Below are positions 4,259-54,987 of a DNA stretch of 55,293 nt, one piece after another; the first letter of the stretch is position 1, and every line of letters starts with the position of its first letter. The notes below the pieces were generated by a model, which saw only the letters and a list, made by a program, of their open reading frames with translations, was not told the origin of the DNA and did no database searches. The stretch spans positions 536-55,828 of the forward strand of contig MHZX01000147.1 of the NCBI GenBank assembly GCA_001828935.1, given 5' to 3'. The translations under genes were made by a program, and so were the position numbers. The stretch comes from Rhodocyclales bacterium RIFCSPLOWO2_02_FULL_63_24. GTDB lineage: Bacteria > Pseudomonadota > Gammaproteobacteria > Burkholderiales > Rhodocyclaceae.

Positions 4259-4413
4259 TGCGATATGTGATGCGGGTTCTGGTATTCGCTGTGGTCGGCG
4301 TGGCGCTGGGTGGTTGCGTAACGCCCGGCGGGCCGACGCCGTTCGAGATCGGCGCCGAAGCGCCGCCGCCGGCGGGGTGTGTTGAAGGGAGGGCGCGCGG
4401 TGCGGACTGCTGA
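4255..4413 (+). CDS. Small phage lipoprotein
   Basis: This 52-aa product starts at ATG 4255 (or ATG 4258) in a 4-bp overlap with the preceding stop. It has a positively charged start (MMRYVMR), a hydrophobic stretch and a lipobox ending LGGC-V, followed by a Pro-rich tail. This is the layout of a lipid-modified outer-membrane anchored peptide such as an Rz1-type spanin or a superinfection-exclusion lipoprotein. A clearer spanin pair lies at 5967-6595, so a second role is more likely. The downstream gene's Shine-Dalgarno lies inside this gene. Confidence 0.5.
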   Translation: MMRYVMRVLVFAVVGVALGGCVTPGGPTPFEIGAEAPPPAGCVEGRARGADC

Positions 4414-25849: not shown

Positions 25850-25865
25850 TGTCGCAAGTCCTACA
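25850..25865. promoter_or_regulatory. NifA upstream activator sequence between rnfG and nifL
   Basis: TGT-CGCAAGTCCT-ACA fits the TGT-N10-ACA consensus exactly. It lies between the divergent -24/-12 promoters of rnf (25721) and nifL (25908), so one site could serve both. A site only about 42 bp upstream of the nifL -24 element is close for an enhancer, so rnf may be the main target. Confidence 0.7.
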
Positions 25866-27622: not shown

Positions 27623-29205
<1,583 letters not shown>

Positions 29206-29206
<1 letters not shown>

Positions 29207-34322: not shown

Positions 34323-34338
34323 TGTCGCGTTTGCGACA
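34323..34338. promoter_or_regulatory. NifA upstream activator sequence for nifB
   Basis: TGT-CGCGTTTGCG-ACA is an exact TGT-N10-ACA site with dyad symmetry. It lies 59 bp upstream of the nifB -24 element. It closely resembles the site at 54760 (TGT-CGGACTTGCG-ACA). Confidence 0.82.
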
Positions 34339-34396
34339 TCTTTGTCTGGCTGAAAAAATCCATTTATTTCAGTGCGTTGATGGAATCTCGCGGCAT

Positions 34397-34410
34397 GGCA
34401 TGGCGGTTGC
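34397..34410 (+). promoter_or_regulatory. Sigma-54 promoter of the nifB operon
   Basis: TGGCATGGCGGTTGCT shows GG (34397-34398), GC (34409-34410) and a good -24/-12 consensus. It lies 49 bp before the nifB ATG and downstream of a NifA site. Confidence 0.82.
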
Positions 34411-34458
34411 TGAACAGCGAGTACCCCACCCCCGAGGGAAGCTCAAGGGAAGCCCGCC

Positions 34459-35997
34459 ATGGATCTGCCTGTCATCGAATCCCCTTCGCCCAAGGCCGGC
34501 GGCTGCAGCGCCGGCAGCTGCGGCTCCACTGCCGACCAGATGGGCGGCATGTCGGACGCAATCCGCGCCAAGGTGCAGGACCATCCCTGCTATTCCGAAG
34601 ACGCCCACCACTACTTCGCCCGCATGCACGTCGCGGTGGCGCCGGCCTGCAACATCCAGTGCCACTACTGCAACCGCAAGTACGACTGCGCCAACGAGTC
34701 GCGCCCCGGCGTCGTCTCCGAACTGCTGACGCCCGATCAGGCGGTGAAGAAAACCCTTGCCGTCGCCGCCACGATTCCGCAGATGACGGTGCTCGGCATC
34801 GCCGGCCCCGGCGATCCCCTGGCCAATCCCGAGCGCACCTTCGAAACCTTCCGCCAACTGGCGGCGAAGGCACCCGACATCAAGCTCTGCGTCTCCACCA
34901 ACGGCCTTTCGCTGCCGCAGCATGTCGAGGAATTATCGAAGCACAACATCGACCACGTGACGATCACCATCAACTGCGTCGATCCGGACGTCGGCGCCAA
35001 GATCTATCCGTGGATCTTCTGGAACAACAAACGCATCCACGGCCGCGAGGCCGCCGCGATCCTCATCGCGCAGCAGCAGAAGGGGCTGGAGATGCTCACC
35101 GCGAAGGGCATCCTGGTCAAGGTCAACTCGGTGCTGATCCCCGGCGTCAATGACGAGCACCTGAAGGAGGTGTCGAAGATCGTCAAGGCCAAGGGCGCCT
35201 TCCTGCACAACGTCATGCCGCTGATCGCCGAGGCCGAGCACGGCACCTTCTACGGCGTGATGGGGCAGCGCAGCCCGCGCCCGGCCGAACTCAAGGCGCT
35301 GCAGGACGCCTGCGAAGGCGACATGAACATGATGCGCCACTGCCGCCAGTGCCGCGCCGACGCGGTGGGCCTGCTCGGCGAGGACCGCGGCGACGAATTC
35401 ACCCTGGACAAGATCGAGGCCATGGAGATCGATTACGAAGCCGCGATGGCCGTGCGCGCCGAGCTGCGCGCCAAGGTCACGGCGGAACTGGAGGCCAAGC
35501 GCGCCAAGGCGCATGCACCTGCGGCGCCGCAGGTGGTGCAGTTCATGCCGCGCGCGACGAAGGCACTTCGAGAGTTCCCGGAGGGACGCACCGCGCTGGC
35601 GCCGGTGGGACGGCGCGTGTTGATGGCCGTGGCAGCGAAGGGCGGCCTGGTCGCGGTGCATTTCGGCCACGCCAAGGAATTCCTGGTCTATGAAGCTTCC
35701 GCCGAGGGCGCCAAGTTCGTCGGCCACCGCAAGGCCGAGCAGTACTGCGCCGGCGACGAAACTTGCGGTGACGGCGAATCGGTGCTCGACAAGACCATCA
35801 AGGCCCTGGTCGACTGCGAAGTGGTGCTCTGCTCCAAGATCGGTTACGAGCCCTGGGGCAGCCTCGAAGCCGCCGGCATCCAGCCCAACGGCGAGCATGC
35901 CCTGGAGCCGATCGAGGAAGCCGTGATGGCGGTCTGGCAGGAAATGCTGGCGGCGGGGAAACTCGACGCCCCTCCCGTCGCGGCCAAGCGCGCCTGA
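34459..35997 (+). CDS. nifB: NifB, FeMo-cofactor biosynthesis radical SAM protein
   Basis: The 512-aa protein has the radical SAM motif C64-x3-C68-x2-C71 (ACNIQCHYC) after an N-terminal Cys-rich stretch (GGCSAGSCGS). It includes GIAGPGDPLANPE and the NifB motif HCRQCRADAVGLLGEDRG (about 294-311). The C-terminal 110 residues form a NifX/NafY-type cofactor-binding domain (VHFGHAKEFLVYE). NifB builds the Fe8S9C cluster (NifB-co) from two 4Fe-4S units and S-adenosylmethionine. It heads a six-gene operon with a NifA/sigma-54 promoter. Confidence 0.95.
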   Translation: MDLPVIESPSPKAGGCSAGSCGSTADQMGGMSDAIRAKVQDHPCYSEDAHHYFARMHVAVAPACNIQCHYCNRKYDCANESRPGVVSELLTPDQAVKKTLAVAATIPQMTVLGIAGPGDPLANPERTFETFRQLAAKAPDIKLCVSTNGLSLPQHVEELSKHNIDHVTITINCVDPDVGAKIYPWIFWNNKRIHGREAAAILIAQQQKGLEMLTAKGILVKVNSVLIPGVNDEHLKEVSKIVKAKGAFLHNVMPLIAEAEHGTFYGVMGQRSPRPAELKALQDACEGDMNMMRHCRQCRADAVGLLGEDRGDEFTLDKIEAMEIDYEAAMAVRAELRAKVTAELEAKRAKAHAPAAPQVVQFMPRATKALREFPEGRTALAPVGRRVLMAVAAKGGLVAVHFGHAKEFLVYEASAEGAKFVGHRKAEQYCAGDETCGDGESVLDKTIKALVDCEVVLCSKIGYEPWGSLEAAGIQPNGEHALEPIEEAVMAVWQEMLAAGKLDAPPVAAKRA

Positions 35998-37451: not shown

Positions 37452-38482
37452 GCCCGGACCCGGCCGCGGTCCTGGCGCGGGCCGAGGCCGCCTACCTTGG
37501 CCTCGCGCTGGGCGATGCGCTCGGCGCCACGGTCGAATTCATGACGCCGCGCGAGATCGCCCATCACCACGGCGTGCATCGCGAGATCGGCGGCGGCGGC
37601 TGGCTGCGGTTGGCGCCCGGCCAGGTCACCGACGACACCGGCATGGCGCTGGCGCTGGGTCAGGCGATTCTCGCCCATGACGGCAGGATCGAAGCGCTGG
37701 CCTGCGCCCGCGCCTTCGATGCCTGGATGCGCGCCAGGCCGGTCGATATCGGCAACACCGTGCGGCGCAACCTGATCCGCTTCCGCAACACCGGCGAGCC
37801 CGAGGCGCCGGCCTCCGACCATGACGCCGGCAACGGCGCTGCGATGCGCGTGCTGCCGGTGGCCCTGGCCACCTTCGGCCGGCCCGAAGCCGAGGTGCGC
37901 GCCGCCTGTCGCGCCCAGGCCCATGTCACCCACCACAACGCGATGTCCGACGCCGCCTGCGAATTCCTCGCGCTCTCGGTGCAGGATTTCCTGCGTGGCG
38001 ATTCGCTGCAACAGGTGTTTCGCCAGCGCATCCGGCCGCTGGTCGCCGCCCATCCCGCCTACGCCTTCCGCGACCGGCCGCGGCGCGAAAACCCCAGCGG
38101 CTGGGTGGTGGAAACCATGCAGGCGGTGCTGCAGGCGGTGGTCGATGTCGGCGGCTTCGAGCACTGCCTGGTCGACGTCGTCAATCGCGGCGGCGACGCC
38201 GACACCACCGGCGCCATCGCCGGCATGCTGGCCGGCGCCCTCTACGGTCGCGAGGCCCTGCCCGCGCGCTGGCTCAAGGCGCTCGATCCGGCCGTGCGCG
38301 AGGCCTGCATGGCACAGGCGCGCGGCCTGATCGCCCAGCCGTCGTTGCCTGCCCGCGAAGCGGCGTCCCAGGCATGCAGAGCACCTGCCCGCGAAGCGGC
38401 GTCCCAGGCATGCAGAGCACCTGCCCGCGAAGCGGAAACCCAGACAGGCACCTCGGCCGATCTCGTGCCTGGGAAGTCGTAG
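37448..38482 (+). CDS. draG: DraG, ADP-ribosyl-[dinitrogen reductase] hydrolase
   Basis: The product (344 aa) starts at GTG 37448, overlapping the FeSII-like stop. It has the dinuclear-metal motifs of DraG: GLALGDALGATVEFM (about residues 18-32), VTDDTGMALALGQAIL (about 60-75), SDHDAGNGAAMRVLP and RGGDADTTGAIAGMLAGALYG. DraG removes ADP-ribose from the arginine of NifH and so reactivates nitrogenase; its partner DraT is not in the window. The C-terminal 45 residues are an added tail made of two and a half copies of a 12-aa repeat (PAREAASQACRA) encoded by 36-bp DNA repeats, not part of the catalytic core. Confidence 0.9.
   Translation: MSPDPAAVLARAEAAYLGLALGDALGATVEFMTPREIAHHHGVHREIGGGGWLRLAPGQVTDDTGMALALGQAILAHDGRIEALACARAFDAWMRARPVDIGNTVRRNLIRFRNTGEPEAPASDHDAGNGAAMRVLPVALATFGRPEAEVRAACRAQAHVTHHNAMSDAACEFLALSVQDFLRGDSLQQVFRQRIRPLVAAHPAYAFRDRPRRENPSGWVVETMQAVLQAVVDVGGFEHCLVDVVNRGGDADTTGAIAGMLAGALYGREALPARWLKALDPAVREACMAQARGLIAQPSLPAREAASQACRAPAREAASQACRAPAREAETQTGTSADLVPGKS
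38348..38435. repeat. 36-bp tandem repeat in the 3' end of draG
   Basis: Units at 38348-38383 and 38384-38419 are identical, with a third partial copy from 38420. Each unit starts CCTGCCCGCGAAGCGGCGTC and ends CCCAGGCATGCAGAGCA. TGCCTG and CAGGCA form a stem. The unit length and the tail (GGCATGCAGAGCA) resemble the 8671-8742 repeat. Confidence 0.8.
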
Positions 38483-38747: not shown

Positions 38748-38823
38748 TCCGCGGCATTCGGCGCGGACAATGCGGCGCTCGGCACGCTATCCCCGTTCGG
38801 CCGCCCAGAAGTTAGACTGCGCT

Positions 38824-39585: not shown

Positions 39586-39659
39586 TCCGGGCGGAAAAGC
39601 AAGGCGGCCCCTTTCGGTTCGCCAGCCCGCGGGCGTTTGCCCCTGGCTGCCGTGGTGGC

Positions 39660-39745
39660 AGCACCGACTTTCGCCGTGGCGCATCGAGGGCAGTGAATCG
39701 CCTTCGCCATCGCGGCGCCTGCTGCGCACGATGCCTGTCGCCCGC
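39660..39745 (-). pseudogene. Remnant of a CheW-like gene 3' end
   Basis: Read on the minus strand, this stretch encodes TGIVRSRRRDGEGDSLPS. It is strikingly like the C-terminal region TGIVRNMRRDGEGDSLLSVL of the CheW-like gene at 52700-53722. The DNA match (39679-39738 against about 52768-52827) is roughly 80-85% by eye. Upstream of this the frame has a stop and no homology. It appears to be the leftover of a deleted or rearranged CheW-like gene. Confidence 0.65.
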
Positions 39746-39860
39746 CGAGGTCAACGGCGGCGCTATGCCGTCGTTCTTGAAATATTGCCGACACGGGCTA
39801 TTATCTGTCCATAAGAACGGCATACGCGCGCGGCATTTCTTGTCCGACTTCTGGGAGGTA

Positions 39861-41141: not shown

Positions 41142-41168
41142 GCCGGCATCGCCACGGTGTCGTCATAC

Positions 41169-41182
41169 TTGACATAGGTCAA
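41169..41182. promoter_or_regulatory. FNR/DNR-type binding site upstream of the cheW operon
   Basis: TTGAC-ATAG-GTCAA is a perfect dyad matching the FNR/Anr/Dnr consensus (TTGAT-N4-ATCAA) except for the inner pair. It is about 105 bp before the double-CheW gene start and could tie chemotaxis gene expression to oxygen or nitrogen oxides. Confidence 0.5.
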
Positions 41183-41196
41183 TGTTTTGCCCGACC

Positions 41197-41215
41197 TACT
41201 ACCGTCCCGGTAGTA
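41197..41215. promoter_or_regulatory. Perfect palindrome upstream of the cheW operon
   Basis: TACTACCG-TCC-CGGTAGTA is a perfect 8-bp inverted repeat centred 14 bp after the FNR-like site. The surrounding sequence is AT-rich, unlike most of the window, as expected for a promoter region. No T-run follows, so an operator is more likely than a terminator. Confidence 0.45.
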
Positions 41216-41286
41216 TATCCATTGTAATGACATTGTTTTATTCTTAGTCAAAAGTACTACTATGGCCTGTCTGGGGGAGTCGCAGA

Positions 41287-42312
41287 ATGGATGCACAGGC
41301 TTTGTTGATTTTCGACCTCGACGGTGCGCGCTTTGCAGTCGATGCGACGTGCGTGCTGGAATCGATCTGGCTACCCGAGCTGACGCCCGTCGAGCAGGCG
41401 CCGTCGTGGATCGTCGGCGTGTTCAGCTTGCGCGGGCGCATCGTGCCGGTGATCGACCTCCGTCTGCGCTTCGGGCATCCGGCGCGGCCCTACAGCCTTG
41501 GCGATCGGGTGGTGGTGCTGGCGACCGACCGGGTGCCGGTAGGGATAATCGTCAGCGACGTGATCGAGGTTGTCGATCTGCCGCGGGCCGCCATCCAGGC
41601 TCCGCCGCAGTTCGATGGCAGCGTGCCGGGCTCGGCGCATCTCCTGGCCGGCGAGGCGCGCGTCGGCGACGGACTGGTGAGTCTGCTCGATGTCGCGCGC
41701 CTGACCTGCATTCCCGAAGCGCGGGCGATTGCCGATGCGGCGCAAGCGGCCGGGCAACAAGAACCTGCATCCGAGCGTCAGTTCTGCGCCGAAGCCACGG
41801 CGGACGCGCGCGCCCTGTTCCGCGTCCGCGCCCAGGCACTGCGGGATGCTGCCGTCGCCGAGGAGGGCGACCGGCTGGGGCTGGCGGTGATCGAAGTGGG
41901 CGGCGAGAAATTCGGCGTCGAGCTGGCGAGCGTGCGGGAATTCTGCAACGTCGTCCAGATCAGCCCCATCCCCTGCTGCCCGCCGCATATTCGCGGCGCC
42001 ATCAACCTGCGCGGCGACCTCGTCATCCTGATCGACCCGCGTGCCGCGCTCAACCTGCCGACGGCCGATGTCGGCGGCAACAAGGCCGTGATCGGCACGC
42101 GCGGCGAACAGCCGGTGGGGATCGTGGTGGACGATGTGCATGACGTCGTCTATTTGCGCGCCGAGGAACTGCGGGCGCCGCCGCCTGCGCTGCGCGAGAG
42201 TGGCGGCGCGGAAATCAAGGGCGCTGCACGCTATGCCGAAGGGATGATGACGGTACTGGACCTGCCGGCGCTGCTGGCACGGGAGGAATGGGTTGTCGAT
42301 GAGAAGGTGTGA
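41287..42312 (+). CDS. cheW: Protein with two CheW domains
   Basis: The 341-aa protein has two CheW coupling domains. The first (about residues 5-140) has APSWIVGVFSLRGRIVPVID and the second (about 190-335) has CCPPHIRGAINLRGDLVILI. Both are SH3-like domains that link chemoreceptors to CheA. A GGGGGAG ribosome site lies 8 bp upstream. It opens the operon cheW-mcp-cheA-cheB-hybrid kinase-response regulator/kinase. Twin CheW domains are less common than single ones and suggest scaffolding of an alternative chemosensory array. Confidence 0.88.
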   Translation: MDAQALLIFDLDGARFAVDATCVLESIWLPELTPVEQAPSWIVGVFSLRGRIVPVIDLRLRFGHPARPYSLGDRVVVLATDRVPVGIIVSDVIEVVDLPRAAIQAPPQFDGSVPGSAHLLAGEARVGDGLVSLLDVARLTCIPEARAIADAAQAAGQQEPASERQFCAEATADARALFRVRAQALRDAAVAEEGDRLGLAVIEVGGEKFGVELASVREFCNVVQISPIPCCPPHIRGAINLRGDLVILIDPRAALNLPTADVGGNKAVIGTRGEQPVGIVVDDVHDVVYLRAEELRAPPPALRESGGAEIKGAARYAEGMMTVLDLPALLAREEWVVDEKV

Positions 42313-42339
42313 AGAGCAACGTGATCGAGGGGAAATGCC

Positions 42340-43791
42340 ATGTTCGCGAAAATGAAACTGCGCCAACGCATCCTGCTGGGCTACCTGGCTCCGCTGCTGC
42401 TGCTGCTGGGCGCCATGGGGATCGTGTTCGTCAACCTGCAGGAGGCGACGCACGCATCGATGGCGATGAAGAATTCGCAGTTGGTATTGGACGAAGCCAA
42501 CGACCTTGCCTATAGCCTGGCCAAGATGCAACGCGCCGCGCGCGGCTATCTGCTGATGAAGAATCCGGACTCGCGCCAGACCCTCCTGGACAGCGAAAAG
42601 GACTTCAGGGATTCAGGTGAAAAGCTTAGTCGCCTGGTCAAGGATTCACAGCAGCAGGAGATTCTGCGCAAGCTGTTGGCCGTGGGGCAAGACCTGTCCA
42701 AACTGGACGAGCAGTTCATGTCCATGGTGGACGCGGGCAAGCAGACAGAAGGCTTGGCCCGGTTCCGTAGCGGAGAAGGCTTGAAGGCATCAAAGGAATT
42801 GGACGCGCTCTGGCACCGATTCAAGCAGCGCGAGGAAGACATCGTGACGGAGCGCCAGGAGGCCTACGATACGGCGATGCGCGCCGTCGCCAACTCGATC
42901 ATCTACGGCATGCTGGGCGCCGTCGGCCTGGCGATCGGGATCGCGGTCTGGCTGGCGGCCGCAGTGAGCAGCAAGATTACCGCCAATGCCGCGCAGCTTT
43001 CCGCCGCGGCCAGCGAAATCGCCGCCACCATCGTCCAGCACGAGCGCACCGCCAGCCAGCAGGCGGCGGCGGCCAACGAGACCTCCGCCACCATCGAGGA
43101 ATTGTCCGTGTCGTCGAGCCGTTCGGCGGAGCAGGCGGCAAACGCGGCTGCGCTGGCTGAAAAATCCGGTGCCGTCACCGTCCAGGGTGGCGAGGCCATC
43201 CGTGCCGCACTGACGTCGATGAACAGCCTCAAGGACAGGATCGGCGCCATGGCCGAGCAGATCCTGCACCTCGGCGAGCAGACCGGGCAGATCGGCAACA
43301 TCACGGTTCTGGTCAAGGACCTCTCGGCGCAGATCAACATGTTGGCCTTGAATGCCGCGGTCGAAGCCGCGCGCGCCGGCGAGCACGGCAAGGGATTCGC
43401 CGTGGTGGCCAGCGAGGTGCGCAAGCTGGCCGACGAAAGCAAGAAATCGGCAGAGCAGGCCAATCTGCTGGTGAGCGACATCCAGAAGGCCGCCAACTCG
43501 TCCGTCATGATGACCGAGGAAGGCGCCCGGACCGTGGCCGAAGTGACCGAGGTGGCCGCCAGGGTCGCCGAGTTGTTCGACAGCCTGGCCGGGATGGCCG
43601 GCAGCGTCAATGAGAACGCGCAGCAGGTCATGCTCAACGCCAAGCAGCAGTCGGCTGCGTTCGTCCAGGTCGTGGAGGCGACCAACAGCATTGCGTCCGG
43701 CGCCAGGGAAACCGCAGCCGGCATCAGCCAGACCAAGATCGGCGTGCAGAGCCTGAACGAGGCGGCGGAGAACCTCAAGGCCATCGCTTGA
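42340..43791 (+). CDS. Chemoreceptor of the chemosensory operon
   Basis: The 483-aa methyl-accepting protein has TM1 (about residues 11-30), a periplasmic helical bundle (about 32-185, with [20 protein letters not shown]) and TM2 (about 190-212). The signalling domain follows directly with no clear HAMP. The conserved tip is [20 protein letters not shown] (about residue 327). Missing HAMP and the DLSAQIN variant place it among receptors of alternative (non-flagellar) Che systems. It lies between double-CheW and CheA, so it is probably the dedicated input of this pathway. Confidence 0.87.
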
Positions 43792-43825
43792 GCCGTAGGC
43801 CGGGCACGGGCAAGGGAGCGCGGAC

Positions 43826-46144
43826 ATGATCGAAGATGCTGAATTGCAACGCTTGTTCAGGGCGGAAAGCGAGGAGCATCTGGCGCGCCTCGACGACAGC
43901 CTGTTGCGCCTGGAGCGGGCACCCGCCGACCAGGCCTTGCTGGAAGAGACGTTCCGCGAAGCCCACAGCCTGAAGGGCGCCGCCAGCATGCTCGGCCTGC
44001 ATCGGGTCGAGAGTACCGCCCATGGCCTGGAAGGCATCCTCAGCGCGGCGCGCAAGGGTACGGTGCCGTTGACGCCCGATACCATCGAGCGCATGAACGT
44101 CGCGCTGGGCGCGCTGCGCCAGCGGGTGCTGGAAGCGCTGGGCGAGGCATCGGCGGCGACGGCAGCGGATTCAGGCGCCGTGCCGCCAGCGCCGACTGTT
44201 GCGCCTGACGCCGCAACCGCCAGCGCGGCACCCGACCTGGCGGCGCCGTCCCCCGCATTCCCTGCCTCTCCCGCACCGCCTGCCGCGGAAACGGCGCCGA
44301 CGACGGAGCCCGTGCCGATGGCAGCGCCTGCCGCGAACGCCAAGGCTGCGGCGCCGCCTGCCGCCGGCGAGCCGTTCCGCATCGAAACCGTGCGCGTCGA
44401 GACCCGCAAACTGGACGATCTGCTGACCCAGGTGGGCGAGCTGTCGGTGATCCAGGGGCGGACCCAGCATCGGCGGGCGCTGCTGGACGAGTTGCTCGAC
44501 CTTTGGGCGGCGCTGGGCCGCCGTCGCCGCATCCCCAATCGTCCCGTGCGCCATGGCGCAGGCAGCGTCGGCGATGCGGCGGAACTGCGAGCGGCGGCTA
44601 CGACGCAGCGTTTCGGCGCCCTGCTCAAGCAGGCGCGCGATGCGCTGGTCGACGACGGCATGCGCCTGGAATCCACGGTCGGCTTGCTCGAAGACCAGGT
44701 GCATGGCATTCGCCTGCTGCCCTTGGCCACGGTGTTCTCGCTGTTTCCGCGCATGGCGCGCGACCTCGCCAAGGAGCAGGGCAAGGAGGTTGACGTGGTG
44801 CTCGATGGCGGCGATATCACGGTCGACAAGCGCATCCTGGAAGAAGTGAAGGACCCGCTGATGCACCTGATCCGCAATGCCATCGACCACGGCGTCGAAG
44901 CGCCGGGCGAGCGCACGCGCCTGGGCAAGGCCAGTCGCGCCACGGTGCGTCTGTGCGCCGTGCGCGAGGATGCCGGGGTGATGCTGGAGGTGCGCGATGA
45001 CGGTCGCGGACTGGATCCGGCGGCGATCCGGCAGGAGGCGGGCCGGCGCGGTCTTGCCGACGAGGCGGCGCTCGCCGCGATGACGCCGTTCCAGTTGCAG
45101 CAGTTGATTTTCACCGCCGGATTTTCCACCAGCCGTTATGTCACCGAACTGTCCGGGCGCGGCGTCGGGCTGGACGTGGTGCGCGTCAATGTCGAGCGGC
45201 TGAAGGGCAGCATCCGCCTGGAATCGCAGCCGGGGCGGGGGCTCGCGGTGCAATTGCGCCTGCCCTTGAGCCTGGCCACCACCCGGCTGCTGCTGGCGAG
45301 CGTCGGCGATCGGCGGTACGGGCTGCCGGTCGAATGCGTGCTGACCTCGCGGCGCGTGCGTGCGGAGGAGATTTTCACGCTCGAAGGCCGTCCCGCCGTG
45401 ATGCTGGACGACGAACCGGTGATCGTCGCGCGCCTGGCGGACCTGCTGGAGTTGTCGGCGGTGGCGGAAAAAAATGCTCGCGCAGCGGCGGCGCAAGCGG
45501 AAGTGCTGGCCTGCGTCGTGCTTCAGGTCGGCGAAGACCGGATGGGGCGCCTGGGCCTGCTGGTGGACGATCTGCTCGACGAGGAAGAGGTGGTGCCCAA
45601 GCCGCTCGGCGCGCCCCTCAAGCGCGTGCGCAACGTCGCCGCGCTGACCATGCTGGGCAGCGGTGAAATCTGTGCGGTGTTGAACCCCGCCGACCTGCTG
45701 CGTTCGGCGCACAAGACGGCCATCGTCCAGCGCACTGCGGACCGCGAAAGCCGCCAGATTCGTCGCGACACAGCGCGGCCGGCCGTGCTGCTGGCCGAGG
45801 ATTCGGCCCTGATCCGCGCCATGGAGAAACGCATTCTCGAAGACGGCGGCTACGAAGTGGTTACCGCAGTGGACGGCGTGGACGCCATCAACATTCTCGG
45901 CAACCGCGCCTTCGCCGCGGTGGTGTCGGACATCGTGATGCCCAACATGGACGGCCTCGCGCTTACTCGACGGATTCGCACCGAGCCGCGCTACAAGGAA
46001 ATGCCGGTGATCCTGGTGACGACGCTGGCGTCGGACGACGACAAGCGGCGCGGACTCGACGCCGGGGCCAATGCCTACATCCCCAAACCGTCCTTCGACC
46101 AGCGCGTGTTGCTGGACACCCTGAAACGGCTGATCGCGCCATGA
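43826..46144 (+). CDS. cheA: CheA histidine kinase with C-terminal receiver
   Basis: The 772-aa protein has an HPt domain with phosphoacceptor His about residue 47 (REAHSLKGAASMLGL), a long Ala/Pro linker (about 108-185), dimerisation, and ATPase domains with N-box LMHLIRNAIDHGVE and SGRGVGLDVVR. A CheW-like domain (about 470-610) and a receiver domain with Asp about 700 (VVSDIVMPNMDG) follow. The linker contains the dispersed repeat encoding AVPPAPTVAP. The hybrid layout with its own receiver is typical of non-flagellar chemosensory pathways. The stop overlaps cheB. Confidence 0.92.
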   Translation: MIEDAELQRLFRAESEEHLARLDDSLLRLERAPADQALLEETFREAHSLKGAASMLGLHRVESTAHGLEGILSAARKGTVPLTPDTIERMNVALGALRQRVLEALGEASAATAADSGAVPPAPTVAPDAATASAAPDLAAPSPAFPASPAPPAAETAPTTEPVPMAAPAANAKAAAPPAAGEPFRIETVRVETRKLDDLLTQVGELSVIQGRTQHRRALLDELLDLWAALGRRRRIPNRPVRHGAGSVGDAAELRAAATTQRFGALLKQARDALVDDGMRLESTVGLLEDQVHGIRLLPLATVFSLFPRMARDLAKEQGKEVDVVLDGGDITVDKRILEEVKDPLMHLIRNAIDHGVEAPGERTRLGKASRATVRLCAVREDAGVMLEVRDDGRGLDPAAIRQEAGRRGLADEAALAAMTPFQLQQLIFTAGFSTSRYVTELSGRGVGLDVVRVNVERLKGSIRLESQPGRGLAVQLRLPLSLATTRLLLASVGDRRYGLPVECVLTSRRVRAEEIFTLEGRPAVMLDDEPVIVARLADLLELSAVAEKNARAAAAQAEVLACVVLQVGEDRMGRLGLLVDDLLDEEEVVPKPLGAPLKRVRNVAALTMLGSGEICAVLNPADLLRSAHKTAIVQRTADRESRQIRRDTARPAVLLAEDSALIRAMEKRILEDGGYEVVTAVDGVDAINILGNRAFAAVVSDIVMPNMDGLALTRRIRTEPRYKEMPVILVTTLASDDDKRRGLDAGANAYIPKPSFDQRVLLDTLKRLIAP
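44177..44200 (+). repeat. Dispersed 24-bp repeat inside the cheA linker
   Basis: GCCGTGCCG followed by CCAGCGCCGACTGTT. It encodes AVPPAPTV in the flexible linker after the HPt domain. It differs by one base from the copy in nifA at 28985 and by one from the copy at 52632. Confidence 0.7.
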
Positions 46145-47217
46145 TCCGCGTGCTGCTGGTCGATGACTCTCCCATCGCGCTGCACATCCTGCAACGTCTG
46201 TTGTCCAGTGCGTCCGACGTCCAGGTGGTGGGCACCGCCAGCGACGGCAGGGAGGCGCTCGACCTGCTGCCGGCACTCAATCCGGACGTGATTTGCACCG
46301 ACCTGCACATGCGCGGCATGGATGGGCTGGAGTTCACCCGCGCAGTGATGAACAAGTATCCGCGTCCGATCCTGGTGGTGAGCGTGTCGGTGGAGCCGGA
46401 TTCGCCCAATGTCTTCCGGCTGCTGGAGGCGGGTGCGGTGGACGTCTATCCGAAACCGCGTGCCATCCTCGACGCGGACCAGGAGCGGTTGAGCCGGGAA
46501 CTGGTCAGCAAGATCCGCATCGTCGCAGGGGTCCATGTTTTCCGTCGCAGCGGGGCGCCGCCGCGCGTGCCGCAGCTTTCCCCGGCCGTTTCGTTGCCGC
46601 CGCATGTGCCGCTCAAGATGGTGGCGATCGGCGCATCCACCGGCGGCCCGCAGGCGCTGCGCAGCATTCTTTCCGCTTTGCCGGTGGCTTTTCCGGCGCC
46701 GCTGGTGTGCGTCCAGCATATCGGCGACGATTTCCTGGCCGGCTTGGTGGCGTGGCTGGCCGAAGTCAGTCCGCTCGCCGTGCGCCTGGCGACTGCAGGC
46801 GAGCTGCCGCACGCCGGGGTGGCCTATTTCGCGCCCCCCGACGCCCATTTGGAATTCGACGAACGCGGCCGATTTGCTTTCTCCGACGGGCCGCCCTGCG
46901 ACGGCCACCGCCCCTCGGTGACCGTCACCCTGCGCGCGGCGGCCCACCGCTTTGGCGGCGGCACCGTGGGGGTTCTGCTGACCGGCATGGGCCGCGACGG
47001 CGCCGAAGGCATGGCGGACATCGCCGCGGCCGGCGGCGTCACCCTTGGCCAGGACGAAGCGAGCAGCGTGGTCTACGGCATGCCCAGGGAAGCGCTGGCG
47101 CTGGGCGCGGTGCAGCACGTGCTGCCACTGGAACAGATCGCCCCTGCCCTGGTCGCGCTGGCAAAGAGCCGCATCGGCAGCGAAGCGACGCGCAACGCGA
47201 GGAGCCCACATGAATGA
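46141..47217 (+). CDS. cheB: CheB-type chemoreceptor methylesterase
   Basis: The 358-aa protein has an N-terminal receiver ([17 protein letters not shown]; Asp about residue 52 in [13 protein letters not shown]) and a C-terminal methylesterase with catalytic Ser in [14 protein letters not shown] (about 163), His in [12 protein letters not shown] and Asp in [11 protein letters not shown] (about 285). It removes methyl groups from receptors and is activated by CheA. It overlaps cheA (ATGA) and the following kinase by 8 bp. Confidence 0.92.
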
Positions 47218-50200
47218 GCAAGCGCCCGGCGCCGCGCCGGAAATCCTGATCGTCGAGGACAGCCCGGTCGAGGCGGAGCTGCTGCGCCGCACCCTGGTGC
47301 GGGCCGGCTTTGCGGCGAGCGTCGCGCGCAACGGCGAGGAGGGCCTGCAGGCGGCGCGCGCACGCCGTCCGGCACTGGTCATGAGCGACATCAAGATGCC
47401 GGTCATGGACGGCTACCAGTTGTGCCGTGCGATCAAGTTCGACGATGAACTGTGGAACATTCCGCTGATCCTGCTGACGGTGCTGTCGGAACCGGAAGAC
47501 ATCATCGAGGCCATCAATTGCGGCGCCGACGCCTACATCATCAAGCCCTTCGCCGAGGCGAGCCTGGCGGTCCGCGTCCGATCCCTGCTCGATGCGCCGA
47601 TCGAGCGGCGGCGGGCGGACGAGCGGCGCGAGGAAATGGTGGGCTACGGCGACCGGCGCTATTCCATCGTCGGCGGCGGGCAGCAGATCCTCAACCTGCT
47701 GCTGTCGCTGTACGAAAACACGCTCAACCAGAATCGCGAATTGATGCTGATCCAGTCCCAGCTCAACGAACTCAACGACAGCCTCGACCAGCAGGTGCGC
47801 GAGCGCACTGCGACGCTGGCCCGCGTCAATCGGGCACTGCTGACGCTGTCGGCCGGCAACCAGGCGCTGGTGCGGGCGAGCAGCGAGAAGGAATTGCTGC
47901 AGACTGCCGTGCACAATGTCGTCGACAACGGCGGCTACTGTCTGGCCACGATCGCCTATGCCGAGGACACTGCGGAACAGAGCATCACGCCGGTGGCCTG
48001 GGCGGGGGCCGAGGAAGGCTATTACGCGCAAACGCATCCCACCTGGGCGGATACGGAAAACGGCCAGGTGCCGGTGGCGCGCGCCATCCGCAGCGGTTTG
48101 CCGCAGATTTGCCGCGATATCGCCGTCGATCCCGCATTTGCTCCCTGGCGGGAGTCGGCGCTGGCGCGCGGCTATGCCGCGAACATCGCCCTGCCCCTGG
48201 CCGACGGCAGCAAGGTTTTCGGCGTCCTGAGCATTTATTCCTGCGAGAAGAACACCTTCGACGAACAGGAAGCCCGCCTGCTGACGGAACTCGCCGACGA
48301 CATTGCCTACGGCATAGTCAATCTGCGCGCCAAGGCCAATTTGCAGGCCGCCGAGCAGGCGCTGCGCCACAGCGAAGTCCAGTATCGCGCGCTGTTCGAC
48401 AACAGCCTGGATGCGATCTTGCTGACCACCCCGGAGGACGGCATCCTTGCGGCGAATCCCGAGGCCCGGCGCCTGTTCGGGCTCGACGAACCGACGCTGC
48501 GCCAACGGGGCCGGCAAGCGGTGGTCGATCCCGGCGACCCGCGCCTGGCGGCCGCCCTGGCGGAGCGCGACCGGACTGGCCGCTTCCGCGGCGAGTTGAC
48601 GCTGGTGGGCCGGAACCAGGTCAAGTTCCCCGCCGAACTGCTGTCGCAAATATTCGAAGGTGCGGACGGGCGCTTGCTGACGAGCATGATCGTGCGCGAC
48701 ATCACCGAGCGCAAGGCCGCCGAGGATCGGGTTCGCAAGCTGTCGCTGGCAGTGGAACAGAGTCCGGCGAGCATCGTCATCACCGATCTCGATGCCACCA
48801 TCGAATACGTTAACGAAGCCTTCGTCCAGGTCACCGGCTACGGCCGCGAGGAAGCGCTCGGGCAAAACCCGCGCCTCCTGCATTCCGGCAAGACGCCGCC
48901 CGAAACCTACCAGGCGATGTGGTCGACGCTCGGCCTCGGGCGGACCTGGAAAGGCGAATTCATCAACCGGCGCAAGGACGGCAGCGAATACGCCGAGTCC
49001 GCCAGCATTTCGCCGATCCACCAGGCCGACGGGCGCGTCACCCACTATCTGGCGGTCAAGGAGGACATCTCCGAGCGCAAGCGCGATGCCGCGGAACTTG
49101 ACCGGCATCGCCACCACCTGGAGGAACTGGTCGAGACCCGCACCGTGGAACTGGAGAAGGCCAAGCGCGCGGCCGAGGTGGCAAACGCCGCCAAGAGCGC
49201 CTTCGTCGCCAACATGAGCCACGAAATCCGCACGCCCCTGAACGCCATCGTCGGCCTCACTCACCTGCTGCGGCGAGGCAGCAGTGATCCGGCGCAGAAA
49301 AAGAAGCTGGAGAAAATCGTCGATGCCTCGCGCCACCTGCTGTCGGTAATCAACGACATCCTCGACTTCTCCAAGATCGAGGCGGGCAAGCTGGCGCTCA
49401 ATAGCACCGACTTCGCCTTCGATCGCATGCTCGATAACGTCATTTCCATGATTGGCCCCAGGCTGCGCGCCAAGGGGTTGGAGATACTCGTCGAGCGGGA
49501 TGCGATTCCGCCCGTGCTGGTCGGCGATTCGACCCGTCTGGCGCAGGCCTTGCTGAACTATCTGTCGAATGCCGTCAAATTCACCGAGCAGGGCCGGATT
49601 ACCGTGCGCCTGTCCAAGGCGGATGAATCGAGCACGGAACTGCTGGTGCGCTTCGAGGTGACGGACGCCGGCATCGGCATTCCGCGGGAGCGGCTCGTCG
49701 GTCTGTTCGCCGCCTTCGAGCAGGTTGATGCCACCATCGCGCGCCGTTACGGCGGTACCGGCCTCGGGCTCGCCATCACCAAGCGATTGGCGCAGCTGAT
49801 GGGCGGCGAGGTCGGCGCCCAGAGCACGCCGGGGCAGGGCAGCACGTTCTGGTTCACGGCCCGCCTGGGCAAGAGCGGACTTGGCCTTGGCGACCTGTCC
49901 GAGGTGCCGGCCATCGCCGAGAAGAGCCTGCAGGCGATGCCGGCCGGCACCCGCGTGTTGCTGGCCGAGGACAACCGCATCAACCAGGAGGTCGCGGTGG
50001 AACTGCTGAAGGAGGCCGGGCTCGCGGTGGATGTCGCCAACGACGGCTTCGAGGCGGTGGAGATGGCGCGCGGCTGTCGCTACGACCTGATCCTGATGGA
50101 CATGCAGATGCCCGGCATGGACGGGCTGGAGGCGACGCGTGCCATCCGTGCCCTGCCCGGCTGCGCGACGCTGCCGATTCTGGCCATGACCGCCAATGCC

Positions 50201-50971
50201 TTCGACGAAGATCGCCAGCACTGCTATGATGCAGGCATGAACGACTTCGTGGCCAAGCCGGTGGATCCCGATCAGCTGTACGGCACGCTGCTGCGCTGGC
50301 TGCCGGTCGAGACCTTCCTTGCTCCCGCTCCTGCCGCGGCAATCGAGGGACTGGCGGCCGGATTGGCGGCCATTCCGGGGCTGGATGTCGCGGCGGGGCT
50401 CAAGGTGCTGAACGGTAACCAGGTCGCCTACCAGCGCCTGTTGCGCAGCTATGCCGTCGGCCACGCGGACGACATGACCCGGCTGCTGGCCCGCCTCGGT
50501 GAGCGGATGTCGGCGGCGGACTACGACGAGGCGAGGCGGCTGGCGCATACGCTGAAGGGGAGTTCCGGCAACATGGGCGCGACCGCGGCGCAGCGCCTGG
50601 CGGCCGAACTGGAGGCGGCGCTGAAGGAGGGCGGCACTGTGGTGCGGATCAAGGCGCAGGCCGAGGCGCTGGCGGCCGAACTGAAGACCCTGACGGCGGC
50701 GATTCTCGCCGTGCTGCCCGCGGAAACCTGCGCCGCGCCGGTCGAAGTGGACTGGGCGGCGGTACGGCAACTGCTTGACGATCTCGAACCGATGCTGCTG
50801 GTTTCCAGCATGCGGGCCAATACCCTTGTCGCGGAAAACGCCGCGCTGCTCAAGGCGGCGCTCGGCCCGACGGGCGCGAAGCTGGAAGCGAACATCGCCG
50901 GCTTTCTCTACCCGGAGGCGCTGGCAGCGTTGCGGCAGGCACGCGCCGAGCATGCAGAACTGGATGGGTGA
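47210..50971 (+). CDS. Multidomain hybrid histidine kinase (REC-GAF-PAS-PAS-HisKA-HATPase-REC-HPt)
   Basis: The 1253-aa protein overlaps cheB by 8 bp. It has a receiver (Asp about 61, [11 protein letters not shown]), a GAF domain (about 225-380), a PAS domain (about 395-515), and a second PAS (about 520-640) that closely resembles the redox PAS of NifL ([42 protein letters not shown]). HisKA follows with His about 672 ([16 protein letters not shown]), then the ATPase, a second receiver ([10 protein letters not shown], about 961) and an HPt domain ([13 protein letters not shown], about 1112). A phosphorelay kinase fed by the Che operon is likely; FAD binding is inferred. Confidence 0.88.
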
Positions 50972-50975
50972 CACG

Positions 50976-52661
50976 ATGGCTGCCGACGACACAGCGCCAA
51001 TGCCGCTGCCGACGATCCTGGCGGTGGACGACGATCCGGGCAACCTGGGTGTGCTCGGCAGGTTGCTGCACCGCGATTACGACGTCCTCGCCGCGCCCTC
51101 GGGCGAGCGCGCCTTGCAGATCGCCGCGGGCGTGCCGAAACCGGACCTGATCCTGCTCGACGTGATGATGCCGGGAATGGACGGCTATGCCGTGCTGGCG
51201 GCCCTGCGCGACAATCCGGCAACCCGTGATATTCCGGTGATTTTCGTCACCGGGCTGAATTCGCCCGAGGACGAAGCGCGCGGCCTGGAGCTTGGCGCGG
51301 TGGATTACATTGCCAAACCCTATAACCCGGCCATCGTCCTGGCGCGCGTGCGCACCCACCTCGAACTCAAGCATGCCCGCGACTGGCTGGCGAACCAGAA
51401 TGTCTATCTCGAAACCGAGCTGGCACGGCGCGAAGCCACCCTGCATTCGGTTACCGGCGCCGCCAGGGATGCAATCATCATGATCGACGACCAGGGCCGG
51501 ATTGCCTTCTGGAACCCGGCGGCGGAGAGCATGTTCGGCTATCCGGCGGCAGAAGCGCTGGGTCGGGAACTGCACCCCCTGCTGGCACCCGCCCATTACC
51601 AGGCGGCCGCCGCCCAGGGCTTGGCGCAGTTTCGCCGCAGCGGTACCGGCGCCGCGGTCGGCAAGACGCTGGAACTGGAGGCCTTGCACAAGGACGGCAA
51701 GGAGTTTCCCGTGGAAATTTCGTTCGCCGCGATCCGCCGCGCGGAGAGCTGGTGGGGTGTCGCCATCGTGCGCGACATCACCGCGCGCAAGGCCGTCGAC
51801 GAGCAGCTCGCGCAGGCGCAATCCCAGTTGCTGCAAGCCGACAAGCTTGCCGCGATCGGCCAGCTGGCGGCGGGCGTGGCGCACGAGATCAACAATCCGA
51901 TCGGTTTCGTCAGTTCCAACATGACGTCGCTGGAAAGCTACGTGGCGGATATTCTGGCGTTATTGGACGCCTTCGAAGCGGCCGCGACGGCCGGGCCGAC
52001 CGGGCCGACCAGTGCGGCGGCGCTCGCAAAGGCGCAGGCGATGAAGCAGGAAAAGGATCTCGGCTTCCTGCGCGCCGACCTCGGCCAGCTGATTGCCGAA
52101 TCGCATGACGGCCTGCAGCGCGTGCGCAAGATAGTCGAGGATCTCAAGGGCTTTGCCCATGCCGAGGACGCCAGCTGGAAATGGGCCGATCTGCACAGCG
52201 GCCTGGAATCCACGCTCAACATGGTCAAGAACGAGCTTAAATACCACTGCACCGTGCACAAGGAGTACGGCGAGATGCCTCAGGTCTGGTGCGTGCCGGC
52301 GCAGCTCAACCAGGTGTTCATGAACCTGCTGGTCAATGCCGGCCAGGCCATCGAGGGCAAGGGCAACATACACCTCACCACCGGCCAGCAAGGAAAAGAG
52401 GTTTTCATCGCCATCGCCGACACCGGCATCGGCATCCCGCCGCAAATCCAGCAGCGCCTGTTCGATCCCTTCTTTACCACCAAGCCGGTCGGCAAGGGCA
52501 CCGGGCTGGGACTCTCGGTATCCAACAGCATCGTGCAAAAGCATCACGGGCGCATCGAGCTGCACAGCGAAGTCGGCAAGGGCACTACCTTCACCGTCTG
52601 GCTGCCGATCACCCAGGAGCAGGTGCAGGACGCCGTCCCGCCAGCGCCGACTGTTCCCTGA
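50976..52661 (+). CDS. Response regulator-PAS-histidine kinase
   Basis: I start at ATG 50976, 4 bp after the hybrid kinase stop; ATGs at 50952 and 50964 overlap it and are possible. The product is 561 aa. It has a receiver (Asp about 58, LLDVMMPGMDGYAV), a PAS domain (about 165-275, DQGRIAFWNPAAESMFGYPA), HisKA with His about 301 (LAAGVAHEINNPIGFVSSNM) and a HATPase domain (IADTGIGIPP, GKGTGLGLSVSNSIVQKHHG). It likely receives phosphate from the preceding kinase or CheA and has its own activity. The last residues, AVPPAPTVP, are encoded by the dispersed repeat. Confidence 0.87.
   Translation: MAADDTAPMPLPTILAVDDDPGNLGVLGRLLHRDYDVLAAPSGERALQIAAGVPKPDLILLDVMMPGMDGYAVLAALRDNPATRDIPVIFVTGLNSPEDEARGLELGAVDYIAKPYNPAIVLARVRTHLELKHARDWLANQNVYLETELARREATLHSVTGAARDAIIMIDDQGRIAFWNPAAESMFGYPAAEALGRELHPLLAPAHYQAAAAQGLAQFRRSGTGAAVGKTLELEALHKDGKEFPVEISFAAIRRAESWWGVAIVRDITARKAVDEQLAQAQSQLLQADKLAAIGQLAAGVAHEINNPIGFVSSNMTSLESYVADILALLDAFEAAATAGPTGPTSAAALAKAQAMKQEKDLGFLRADLGQLIAESHDGLQRVRKIVEDLKGFAHAEDASWKWADLHSGLESTLNMVKNELKYHCTVHKEYGEMPQVWCVPAQLNQVFMNLLVNAGQAIEGKGNIHLTTGQQGKEVFIAIADTGIGIPPQIQQRLFDPFFTTKPVGKGTGLGLSVSNSIVQKHHGRIELHSEVGKGTTFTVWLPITQEQVQDAVPPAPTVP
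52632..52655 (+). repeat. Dispersed 24-bp repeat at the 3' end of the kinase gene
   Basis: GCCGTCCCG followed by CCAGCGCCGACTGTT. It supplies the last codons (AVPPAPTV-P-stop) of the kinase at 50976-52661. Confidence 0.7.
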
Positions 52662-52699
52662 CCGCGCGCCGTTTTGCGATGCGGTCGTGCGTCAGGTCG

Positions 52700-53722
52700 T
52701 CAGGCCGCGGCGGTCTGTTCCTGGCAGCCGCGGCAGCCGAGGCGGCCGCACAGGCGTTCGACGTCGAGCACCGACAGCAGCGAGTCGCCTTCGCCGTCGC
52801 GCCGCATGTTGCGCACGATGCCGGTCACCAGCACGCCGGGCGCGGCATTCATTTCCAGCGTGCCCTGGATGTCGTCGCGGGCGACATCGGAAATTTCGCC
52901 GAGGGCATCCACGAGAAGGCCGAGGCAGTGCTTGTTGTGGGTGCGTACCACCACGATCTGCTGTTCCGCGATGTCCGATTCGCGGGTGCCGGCGATCAGG
53001 CGATCCAGGCGCAGCACGGTGATCAGTTTGTCGCGGAACAGGCGGAAGCCGGCCACCACGTCGCCTTCGGCGCCGGTGGGCGGGGTCAGGCCGCTGCTGT
53101 CGACGGCTTCGAGCACATGCGTGGTCGGCACCGCCAGCCAGCGCTGGCCGATGTGGAAGGTGGCCAGTTCGGCGCCGCCGTCCCCCGAGCGCCGACTGTT
53201 GCTGCTGGCGACTGCGGCCCGTGGCGCGGCCGGCAGTGCAGCGCCGGCGTCGCCCAGGGGAAAGCCGCAGAGCGCTGTCACGTGGTTGCGGTAGCCGTCG
53301 CTGCACTTGAATTCCCGATAGCCCGCCGAGTGCGCGGCGCCGACCGCATAGTGGCGGCCCGCGATGGCCAGGATGCGGGTGCCGCCGCCGGCACCCGCGC
53401 CGGCGGCGACCGGAAAGGCAGCGCCGATGGCGAAGGCTTCGCTCGACGAGGCCAGCACGCGGCTGGCGGCGTCGATGAAGACGGCGAAGGAGTTTTCCAC
53501 TACCTGGCCGGCGTCGTCGCGTGGCAGGGCGTCGGTTAGCATCGCGGCGAATTGCGGCGCGGCGTCGAACACGATGGCGATGCCGCCGACGGCCGCCGCA
53601 CCCGCCGGGTCGCGCACTGCGGCAGCATAGACGTAGGTGGGGCGGCCGCCATACAAACGGGTCGGGACAAAGTCGGACACCACATAGCCTTGGGAGGAGT
53701 CGAGGGCCAGCGTGCGCGCCAC
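52700..53722 (-). CDS. CheW-like domain protein with truncated N-terminal sensor
   Basis: The open frame continues upstream of 53722 as far as the SIR2-like gene with readable sequence (DVNPARHGLVGQRLDEEW) but no ATG; GTG 53722 is the first plausible start, giving 340 aa. The N-terminal half (about 1-165) resembles the end of a sensor domain, YVVSDFVPTRLYGGRPTYVY and GGIAIVFDAAPQFAAMLTDA. The C-terminal half is a CheW domain with THVLEAVDSSGLTPPTGA and RLFRDKLITVLRLDRLIAGT. It ends in a cysteine motif, CGRLGCRGC. It is probably the 5'-truncated copy of a longer chemosensory protein. It could be expressed from the upstream NifA-type promoter. The linker carries a repeat copy. Confidence 0.65.
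   Translation of the reverse strand: MARTLALDSSQGYVVSDFVPTRLYGGRPTYVYAAAVRDPAGAAAVGGIAIVFDAAPQFAAMLTDALPRDDAGQVVENSFAVFIDAASRVLASSSEAFAIGAAFPVAAGAGAGGGTRILAIAGRHYAVGAAHSAGYREFKCSDGYRNHVTALCGFPLGDAGAALPAAPRAAVASSNSRRSGDGGAELATFHIGQRWLAVPTTHVLEAVDSSGLTPPTGAEGDVVAGFRLFRDKLITVLRLDRLIAGTRESDIAEQQIVVVRTHNKHCLGLLVDALGEISDVARDDIQGTLEMNAAPGVLVTGIVRNMRRDGEGDSLLSVLDVERLCGRLGCRGCQEQTAAA
53177..53200 (+). repeat. Dispersed 24-bp repeat in the CheW-like gene linker
   Basis: GCCGTCCCC followed by CGAGCGCCGACTGTT on the plus strand, antisense to the gene. It lies between the sensor remnant and the CheW domain, again a linker. Confidence 0.6.
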
Positions 53723-53798
53723 CCATTCCTCGTCCAGGCGCTGGCCGACCAGGCCGTGCCTGGCCGGGTTTACGTCGCCTTGCGTGGAACGCGTTGCG

Positions 53799-54671
53799 TC
53801 AGGCTGGTGCCAGGTTGTCCGCCAGTTCGCCGGCCAGGTCCCTGCATCCGCCTTCGACGATCTGTATTCCCTGTCGCGCGCAGAAGCGCCGCTCCTTGTC
53901 GGTCGGCTCGGCGATCAGGGCCCAGCCGGTGGGTTGCGTCGCCGCGTCGTAGATCAGGTCGGAGAACACCATGCGTTCGGAATCGCGGTTGAGGCGCAGG
54001 CCCAGCAGCAGGTAACGCTTGCCGCGGCGGCGGGCCTTGACGAAGGAAGGCACGGCGAAGCCGCCCATCAGCTCGGTGATGTAATCGACATAATCGGCGT
54101 CGGACGCGATGTAGCTCGGCTGCGGCAGCGGCGCGCCCATCGGCTTGAACAGGACCGGCAGGCTCGGGTCGGCCTGGGCCGGGTCGATCTCGGCATAGCT
54201 GTCGCCGTCGTGGGCGAACAGCTTGAAGCGGTAGTCGGTGCCGCTGCGGTTGCCAACCACGCGTGCGCAGCCGAGGATCAGCAGGTGCGGGACATGGGCG
54301 TAGCTGTCCAGCAGTTGCGTGTCGCGGTTGATGTCGATCACGTAGGGTGGGGCGATCGCCGCCAGCCAGTCGTGGAGCGACGCACGCGTCCATTTGCGGG
54401 TGCCGTAGGTGGCGTCGAGGAAGCGGGTGACGGCGCTGCGGCCGCGTTTGAGTTCGACGTTCATCGCCGCGCGCGGGAATTCGTACATCAGCTTGGGCGC
54501 CATCGGCTGGCCGTTGTTCATGGCCAGGATCAGTTGTTCGCTGGTGGCCGGCATCGATCGGCCGTCGAGCGTCGATGTCACGTCGGCCAGCGCGCCGGGG
54601 CCGAGATAGGGAACGATGCTGCCATCGGCGAGGCCGGCCCGCCATTGCTCCACAAGTGCGATGGGTAACAT
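53799..54671 (-). CDS. SIR2-like protein under NifA/sigma-54-type control
   Basis: The start at ATG 54671 gives 290 aa and is preceded by GGAG; an in-frame ATG at 54797 lies upstream of the promoter and is rejected. The N-terminus LVEQWRAGLADGSIVPYLGP and GALADVT resembles the nucleotide-binding glycine loop of SIR2_2-type domains (usually GxVPFLGAGAS). PPYVIDINRDTQLLDS (about 127-142) resembles the later YDxNxDxL-like motif of such proteins. I recall SIR2-like genes near nif genes in related bacteria, but no function is established to my knowledge. Upstream lie a GG-N10-GC promoter and an exact TGT-N10-ACA site. Confidence 0.68.
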   Translation of the reverse strand: MLPIALVEQWRAGLADGSIVPYLGPGALADVTSTLDGRSMPATSEQLILAMNNGQPMAPKLMYEFPRAAMNVELKRGRSAVTRFLDATYGTRKWTRASLHDWLAAIAPPYVIDINRDTQLLDSYAHVPHLLILGCARVVGNRSGTDYRFKLFAHDGDSYAEIDPAQADPSLPVLFKPMGAPLPQPSYIASDADYVDYITELMGGFAVPSFVKARRRGKRYLLLGLRLNRDSERMVFSDLIYDAATQPTGWALIAEPTDKERRFCARQGIQIVEGGCRDLAGELADNLAPA

Positions 54672-54705
54672 TTCAATGTTCTCCGAGTGAAATGTTTTCC
54701 CTCTC

Positions 54706-54719
54706 GCAAGAAGCGCACC
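54706..54719 (-). promoter_or_regulatory. Sigma-54 promoter of the SIR2-like gene
   Basis: On the minus strand GGGTGCGCTTCTTGCGA has GG and GC exactly 10 bp apart and a perfect TTGC -12 box; the -24 box is weaker. It lies 35 bp upstream of the ATG, with a NifA-type site 41 bp further upstream. Confidence 0.65.
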
Positions 54720-54759
54720 CGCCCCGCAAGCCTTGTCCGCCAAGGGCGATGCCGCGGAT

Positions 54760-54775
54760 TGTCGGACTTGCGACA
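54760..54775. promoter_or_regulatory. NifA upstream activator sequence for the SIR2-like gene
   Basis: TGT-CGGACTTGCG-ACA fits the NifA consensus exactly and shares the inner TTGCG with the nifB site (TGT-CGCGTTTGCG-ACA). Spacing to the -24/-12 element is similar to that at nifB. Confidence 0.75.
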
Positions 54776-54987
54776 AGGACTTGTGGAACTGCGCCATGCC
54801 AAGAGTCGGCGCTGGTGTTGCGGCGGATTGCCTTTGTTATCTCAGGCCACGAGGCTTTTCGTACTCGTGGAGGATGTCATAGCTTTCAAAGCATCATCCA
54901 GCTTGAAGATTTAAGCCAATCGCTCGGTATGGGCACAGTCAGTCAAGCCTGCAACTGTTTGCTGTCCGTCGGTTCCTACTTCAAACC

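Follow-up and report, generated by a model that had tools for sequence, protein, structure and literature searches.

A SIR2-like gene in the window, the 55,293-nucleotide stretch of DNA analysed here, is most likely the already described pnfA, a NifA-controlled accessory nif gene. A sequence-only reading had presented it as an unnamed nitrogen-fixation gene, a claim to novelty that falls away because pnfA was described in 2010 (PMC2820453). On balance, the evidence favours pnfA as a diazotroph-specific accessory nif gene with its own NifA/sigma-54 promoter, whose product would be a SIR2-fold pseudoenzyme supporting nitrogenase post-transcriptionally during respiration. The predicted loss of active-site residues in nif-linked SIR2 proteins is new here, and the analysis assigns a specific fold and a clear, testable active-site loss to a nif gene that has received little study but whose mutant phenotype is published.

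The gene and its promoter

The features of the window on which the analysis draws are as follows.

53799..54671, minus strand: pnfA-type gene, subfamily A, SIR2-like fold; 290 aa, 31.9 kDa; Met178 at the position of the catalytic His, Asn115 kept
54705..54720, minus strand: sigma-54 -24/-12 promoter, GGGTGCGCTTCTTGCG; 8/12 consensus positions, GG-N10-GC at 54706-54719
54760..54775, minus strand: NifA-type site (UAS), TGTCGCAAGTCCGACA, TGT-N10-ACA; upstream of the pnfA-type gene, conserved among homologous loci
27623..29206, plus strand: nifA, 69% to a TIGR01817 member
34323..34411, plus strand: nifB UAS (34323-34338) and -24/-12 promoter (34396-34411), for comparison with the pnfA-type gene
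34459..35997, plus strand: nifB, 72% to a NifB reference
37529..38335, plus strand: draG (matched part), 69% to a TIGR02662 member

The probable start of the gene is the ATG at 54671, where the conserved protein begins. An ATG at 54797, which opens a mechanical 332-aa open reading frame, was rejected as the start because it would place the promoter inside the frame and because conservation starts at 54671. The protein scores 27.4 bits against PF13289 (SIR2_2), above the gathering score of 24.5, and is thus a member of that Pfam family; together with the fold matches described below, this bears out its description as SIR2-like. The glycine-loop segment IVPYLGPGAL pointed out in the sequence-only reading is present in the protein.

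That reading had also proposed an exact TGT-N10-ACA site and a GG-N10-GC promoter upstream of the gene, arranged much as at nifB, and both elements, as well as the comparable nifB pair, were found at the positions given above. Taken alone, TGT-N10-ACA occurs four times in the window against 3.85 expected, which equals chance, and the match of the pnfA promoter to the sigma-54 consensus is modest. Pairs of site and promoter number six in the window, compared with a mean of 1.55 and a maximum of 5 in 60 shuffles; two of the six use the pnfA UAS (one of them in the opposite orientation) and two use a UAS at 25850. The decisive evidence for the UAS and promoter is their conservation across homologues. 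Pattern matching gave 485 matches, 449 of them encoding a relative, and the best 80 of the 449 were analysed as loci, a sample that leans to close relatives since it holds the best-scoring ones. Of 80 homologous regions (the window plus 79 of the 80 loci, L063 being left out with only 15 nt upstream), 67 have both the UAS and the promoter ahead of the pnfA-type gene, whereas random 300-nt segments drawn 200 times from these loci averaged 1.6 and never exceeded 6; as the loci are mutually related, these counts are not independent events. The full pair is missing from 13 of the 80 (L029, L045, L049, L056, L057, L061, L067, L068, L069, L071, L074, L080 and L090). Among homologues, the start is most often preceded by the promoter at about 45-55 nt and by the UAS at about 100-130 nt. 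Where draT lies less than 500 nt upstream (30 loci), the pair is found in 26 and the UAS falls within the draT-pnfA gap in 27, so the pnfA promoter is not simply the nifH promoter viewed from behind.

A third TGT-N10-ACA of the window, at 25850-25865, has sigma-54-like sites on both sides and lies between nifA and an rnf operon on the minus strand (rnfC at about 21241-22530).

Probable identity with published pnfA

In Pseudomonas stutzeri A1501, pnfA (PST1325) is divergent from nifHDK, has a UAS and a -24/-12 promoter, and was NifA- and RpoN-dependent by RT-PCR (PMC2820453). This published dependence, together with the two elements conserved in 67 of the 80 regions, upholds membership of the NifA/sigma-54 regulon. 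The A1501 gene and the window family thus have in common their NifA/sigma-54 dependence, TGT-N10-ACA plus -24/-12 elements, an orientation divergent from nifHDK and restriction to diazotrophs, and the proteins are of similar size (31.7 kDa for A1501 PnfA and 31.9 kDa for the window protein). We infer orthology to A1501 PnfA, which was compared by description only. The two differ in that A1501 is reported to lack DraT and DraG (PMC2820453), whereas the genome of the window has draT, and draG in the locus.

A non-polar pnfA mutant of A1501 showed 23% nitrogenase activity at 0.5% O2, a defect that was complemented, and its nifH transcript was unchanged (PMC2820453). Under anaerobiosis the mutant was wild-type-like without nitrate but lost activity with nitrate, and it still grew on nitrogen-free medium (PMC2820453). 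The authors saw a resemblance between part of PnfA and UspA or ETF-alpha, with no mention of SIR2 in sections 7-9 of the paper, and the role proposed there lies in electron transfer or in protection from oxygen rather than in binding a nucleotide (PMC2820453). PST_1325 has been termed a SIR2 family protein elsewhere (PMC11332353), and the passages concerned in PMC9412634, PMC6053447 and PMC5923616 hold mentions only. Among open-licence PMC papers, none was found with both words PnfA and SIR2.

Azoarcus and Dechloromonas belong to the Rhodocyclales, as do several of the loci closest to the window. Homologues of PnfA at 54-55% were reported from both genera, and two PnfA subfamilies were distinguished, the second at about 20% identity (PMC2820453); these probably correspond to subfamilies A and B of the present analysis.

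Fold and active site

The structure prediction and fold search called for by the sequence-only reading gave a SIR2 fold with SIR2 proteins as the best PDB matches. The AlphaFold model has a mean pLDDT of 93.4 and a pTM of 0.92, and among the best 50 of 316 Foldseek matches in the PDB, DSR2 and KomC come top, with ThsA lower and one AVAST5 entry (E from 3.5e-9, probability 1.00, TM about 0.6, 11-16% identity). We take all four to be SIR2-type defence proteins. By sequence, the single protein had no match in the PDB at E up to 1, and a profile search gave weak KomC matches alone (best E 0.067).

The fold shared with the defence NADases DSR2, ThsA and KomC is what would be expected of a SIR2 anti-phage defence gene that came to lie in nif islands by chance. 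Such an origin is strongly disfavoured, to the point of being hardly credible, given the NifA/sigma-54 promoter, the near-confinement of the gene to nif-positive genomes in two samples (see below) and the broken catalytic dyad. A search of the PADLOC families found no match to the window protein at E up to 1, and the defence-gene reading was rejected on this result. Whereas SIR2_2 proteins and the window protein have a common G-loop, Asn-Asp motif and K-x-x-G motif, the window protein differs from DSR2, ThsA and KomC in being too small to hold the effector regions that the larger of them carry, in the replaced catalytic His and in its NifA-regulated nif surroundings.

Catalysis in SIR2 NADases and sirtuins is performed by a His residue. 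As read from the titles of PDB entries, the variants H171A and H146N mark this residue, which in KomC lies within the motif KFHG. Profile alignment (hhalign) to non-nif SIR2_2 proteins places the His opposite Met178 and an Asn opposite Asn115. The window protein therefore lacks the His-Asn combination of a catalytic sirtuin or SIR2 NADase, Met178 replacing the His while Asn115 is present. Across the 87 rows of subfamily A (86 distinct sequences), Asn is kept in all 87, and the His position holds Met in 82, Leu in 4 and Thr in 1. Asn and His occur together in none of 107 nif-linked rows, although both are present in the two nearest non-nif relatives. These counts omit 14 repeats of counted loci as well as L001-L010, of which eight are identical to counted rows, L001 is the window gene and L002 is from an extra genome; L002 also carries the FKPMG and DINRD motifs. 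The pocket motif columns are near-invariant and among the best conserved of the alignment (A3).

These residues suggest that PnfA is a SIR2-fold pseudoenzyme that has lost activity. With the catalytic residue lost, it is more likely that the window protein senses or holds a nucleotide than that it deacetylates, and the idea of an NAD-consuming enzyme loses ground, as the catalytic His is replaced.

A deacetylase has been proposed for ZMO1821 of Zymomonas mobilis, a protein reported in PMC8600466 and PMC8594446, the former of which offers deacetylation as a guess. The SIR2-like domain, and the acetylated forms of NifA, NifH and NifK that were reported from Z. mobilis (PMC8600466), would accord with an active lysine deacetylase of the sirtuin type that has nitrogenase or NifA as its substrate. 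For PnfA this is very improbable, since the His is replaced in 87/87 subfamily-A rows, Asn and His never coincide in the 107 rows, and no deacetylase description occurs among the best 50 of 316 fold matches, KomC bearing that name elsewhere. The deacetylase label for nif-linked SIR2 proteins is thus unlikely to apply in subfamily A.

Subfamily B and other nif-linked SIR2 proteins

The alignable nif-linked SIR2 proteins of subfamily B, about 25-29% identical to the window type in those aligned, mostly have Trp in place of the Asn, unlike subfamily A. Of the 20 rows (19 distinct sequences), 18 carry Trp at the Asn position, one retains Asn, and one truncated row has a gap there. The His is retained in six rows (L106, L107, L108, L109, L110 and L111), all with Trp at the Asn position, so inactivity in subfamily B would rest on another residue. 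The member tested, L012, has the SIR2_2 domain. A tree built from 41 rows joins A and B at 100/99 support, with long branches leading to the outgroup; such a clade is likely, although its rooting is unsure.

Flanking sequence was inspected for 14 subfamily-B loci, and nifB or nifH lies close by in every one; in the three plasmid cases inspected out of 70 records the gene follows nifB, nifZ and nifT, nifB being present in 3/3. In Rhodobacter capsulatus, the SIR2 family protein Rcc03262 is encoded at the end of the nifB1-nifZT operon and is listed as NF in a nifA double mutant (PMC6925177); we read NF as "not found", which would make the protein NifA-dependent by proteome. The sirtuin-like msi351 of Mesorhizobium loti belongs to a nifB operon, and its mutant was fully effective in nodules (PMC3538637), which argues against a general requirement. 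Such genes from alphaproteobacteria and others, namely those for Rcc03262, ZMO1821, msi351 and the SIR2 protein of R. etli p42d, lie in nif clusters, like the window family; the likeness of ZMO1821, msi351 and Rcc03262 is by description only.

Distribution and neighbourhood

The gene was sought in a family sample of 150 genomes and a phylum sample of 349, both of which contain the window's own genome; the search profile (alignment A3) includes rows from some sampled genomes. Matches were found in 60 of the 150 family-sample genomes, 58 of them strong after two weak ones (G097 and G155) were dropped, and 57 of these 58 are nif-positive, the sample having 65 genomes with a nifD-profile match. 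In the single exception, G118, draG adjoins the pnfA-type gene. The phylum sample has 16 matches, all 16 among 42 genomes that are nif-positive at a nifD-profile cut of about E 1e-80 or better, which was chosen by the analyst; at E 0.001 the tally rises to 60, with 18 further genomes between 1e-4 and 1e-9. Thus, G118 excepted, the pnfA-type gene was found only in diazotrophs. A strong match is absent in 8 of the 65 nif-positive genomes of the family sample and 26 of the 42 of the phylum sample, which indicates that the gene is dispensable.

Of the 80 loci, 54 contain nifH, 48 nifD and 39 nifK, always upstream of pnfA and on the opposite strand, so that pnfA is divergent from and linked to nifHDK in the family; in the genome from which the window comes, a contig other than that of pnfA carries nifHDK and draT. 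Downstream, and always on the opposite strand, are draG (49/80) and nifB (39/80). At least one of nifH, nifD, nifK, nifB, nifA, draG and draT is present in 72 loci, and none of them in 8, within the stretch available. Far from being scattered without nif genes or NifA sites, the homologues have nif neighbours and a conserved promoter, in keeping with the link to nitrogen fixation drawn in the sequence-only reading.

In the window, a chemotaxis-type region (38770-53726), the last member of which is a CheW-domain gene at 52700-53722, sits between draG and pnfA. On the other contig (L095, G000:C29), draT contains an assembly gap, and open reading frames named from their translations as DNA methyltransferase-like and Vsr-type endonuclease-like lie between draT and nifH (1615-4556).

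The sequence-only reading had noted DraG in the locus, which the match at 37529-38335 (69% identity) corroborates, and had suggested a part for the SIR2-like protein in the ADP-ribosylation switch of nitrogenase. The pnfA product might, for instance, buffer NAD for DraT or bind ADP-ribosylated NifH. The neighbourhood lends this some colour: draT precedes the gene on its strand in 55/80 loci (at less than 500 nt in 30), draG follows it in 49 and both are present in 37, and 53 of the 65 nif-positive family-sample genomes have both the gene and a DRAT match. In the phylum sample, however, 12 of the 16 gene-positive genomes have no DRAT match, so the gene does not occur only with DraT, and a role limited to the DraT/DraG system was rejected; DRAT is matched in 4 of these 16 against 22 of the 26 nif-positive genomes that lack the gene. 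Moreover, the pnfA-type gene retains its own promoter, and the pnfA mutant of A1501 is defective in a strain reported without DraT/DraG (PMC2820453). The linkage to draT and draG therefore stands, whereas a role in the switch is weakened and now appears quite improbable.

A hemerythrin-type gene follows pnfA on the same strand within 0.75 kb in 24/80 loci (e.g. L066:11130-11537), at 6-30 nt in eight of these, and is PF01814 in the two members tested. It was not found in the other 56 loci, nor in the window.

Two further associations were considered and set aside. Dependence on Rnf was rejected: of 56 nif-positive genomes chosen by hand, 40 have an rnfC match that passes the cut-off, and 10 of 11 phylum-sample subfamily-B genomes have none that does. 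An association with respiration, judged by ccoN, gave no discrimination, ccoN passing the cut-off in 49 of 56.

Proposed function

PnfA keeps the motifs of a nucleotide pocket and has Met in place of the catalytic His, a combination that suggests binding without turnover. The likeliest mechanism is that it would hold NAD(H), or an adenine nucleotide related to it, uncleaved, act as a redox- or oxygen-responsive adaptor, and so keep nitrogenase or its electron supply active, after transcription, in a respiring cell. The ligand and the target are guesses. A redox- or oxygen-linked role fits best, in view of the published defect in respiring cells and the hemerythrin gene in 24/80 loci. Counting against the proposed function are the effective msi351 mutant, the growth of the pnfA mutant without fixed nitrogen, the dispensability of the gene, the different role proposed in PMC2820453, the His kept in six subfamily-B rows, the lack of discrimination by ccoN and the failure to find a hemerythrin-type gene beside pnfA in 56/80 loci.

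PnfA could instead be a chaperone-like factor, as NifW is held to be, that helps NifH or NifDK to assemble or stay stable, with the SIR2 fold as a mere scaffold. Its linkage to nifHDK, the nifB-nifZ-nifT operons beside which subfamily B is found (in those annotated cases that were examined and in R. capsulatus), and the drop in activity with an unchanged nifH transcript (PMC2820453) all agree with this. It is nonetheless unlikely: a pure scaffold would have no need of the pocket motifs, which are among the best-conserved columns, and the published defect depends on respiration conditions (PMC2820453).

Extended to both subfamilies, the preferred reading of PnfA as a non-catalytic SIR2 protein becomes more speculative. 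Subfamilies A and B might form a nif-dedicated clade of dead sirtuins, in which the dyad was lost through different residues and which would serve as a non-catalytic sensor of NAD(H) or oxygen state, keeping nitrogenase running on O2 or nitrate respiration independently of DraT/DraG, and made in some lineages together with an oxygen-binding hemerythrin; we regard this as possible but doubtful. The analysis sets pnfA apart from the ADP-ribosylation switch and suggests that it might couple nitrogenase activity to respiration or redox state, a coupling that bears on moving nitrogen fixation into other hosts.
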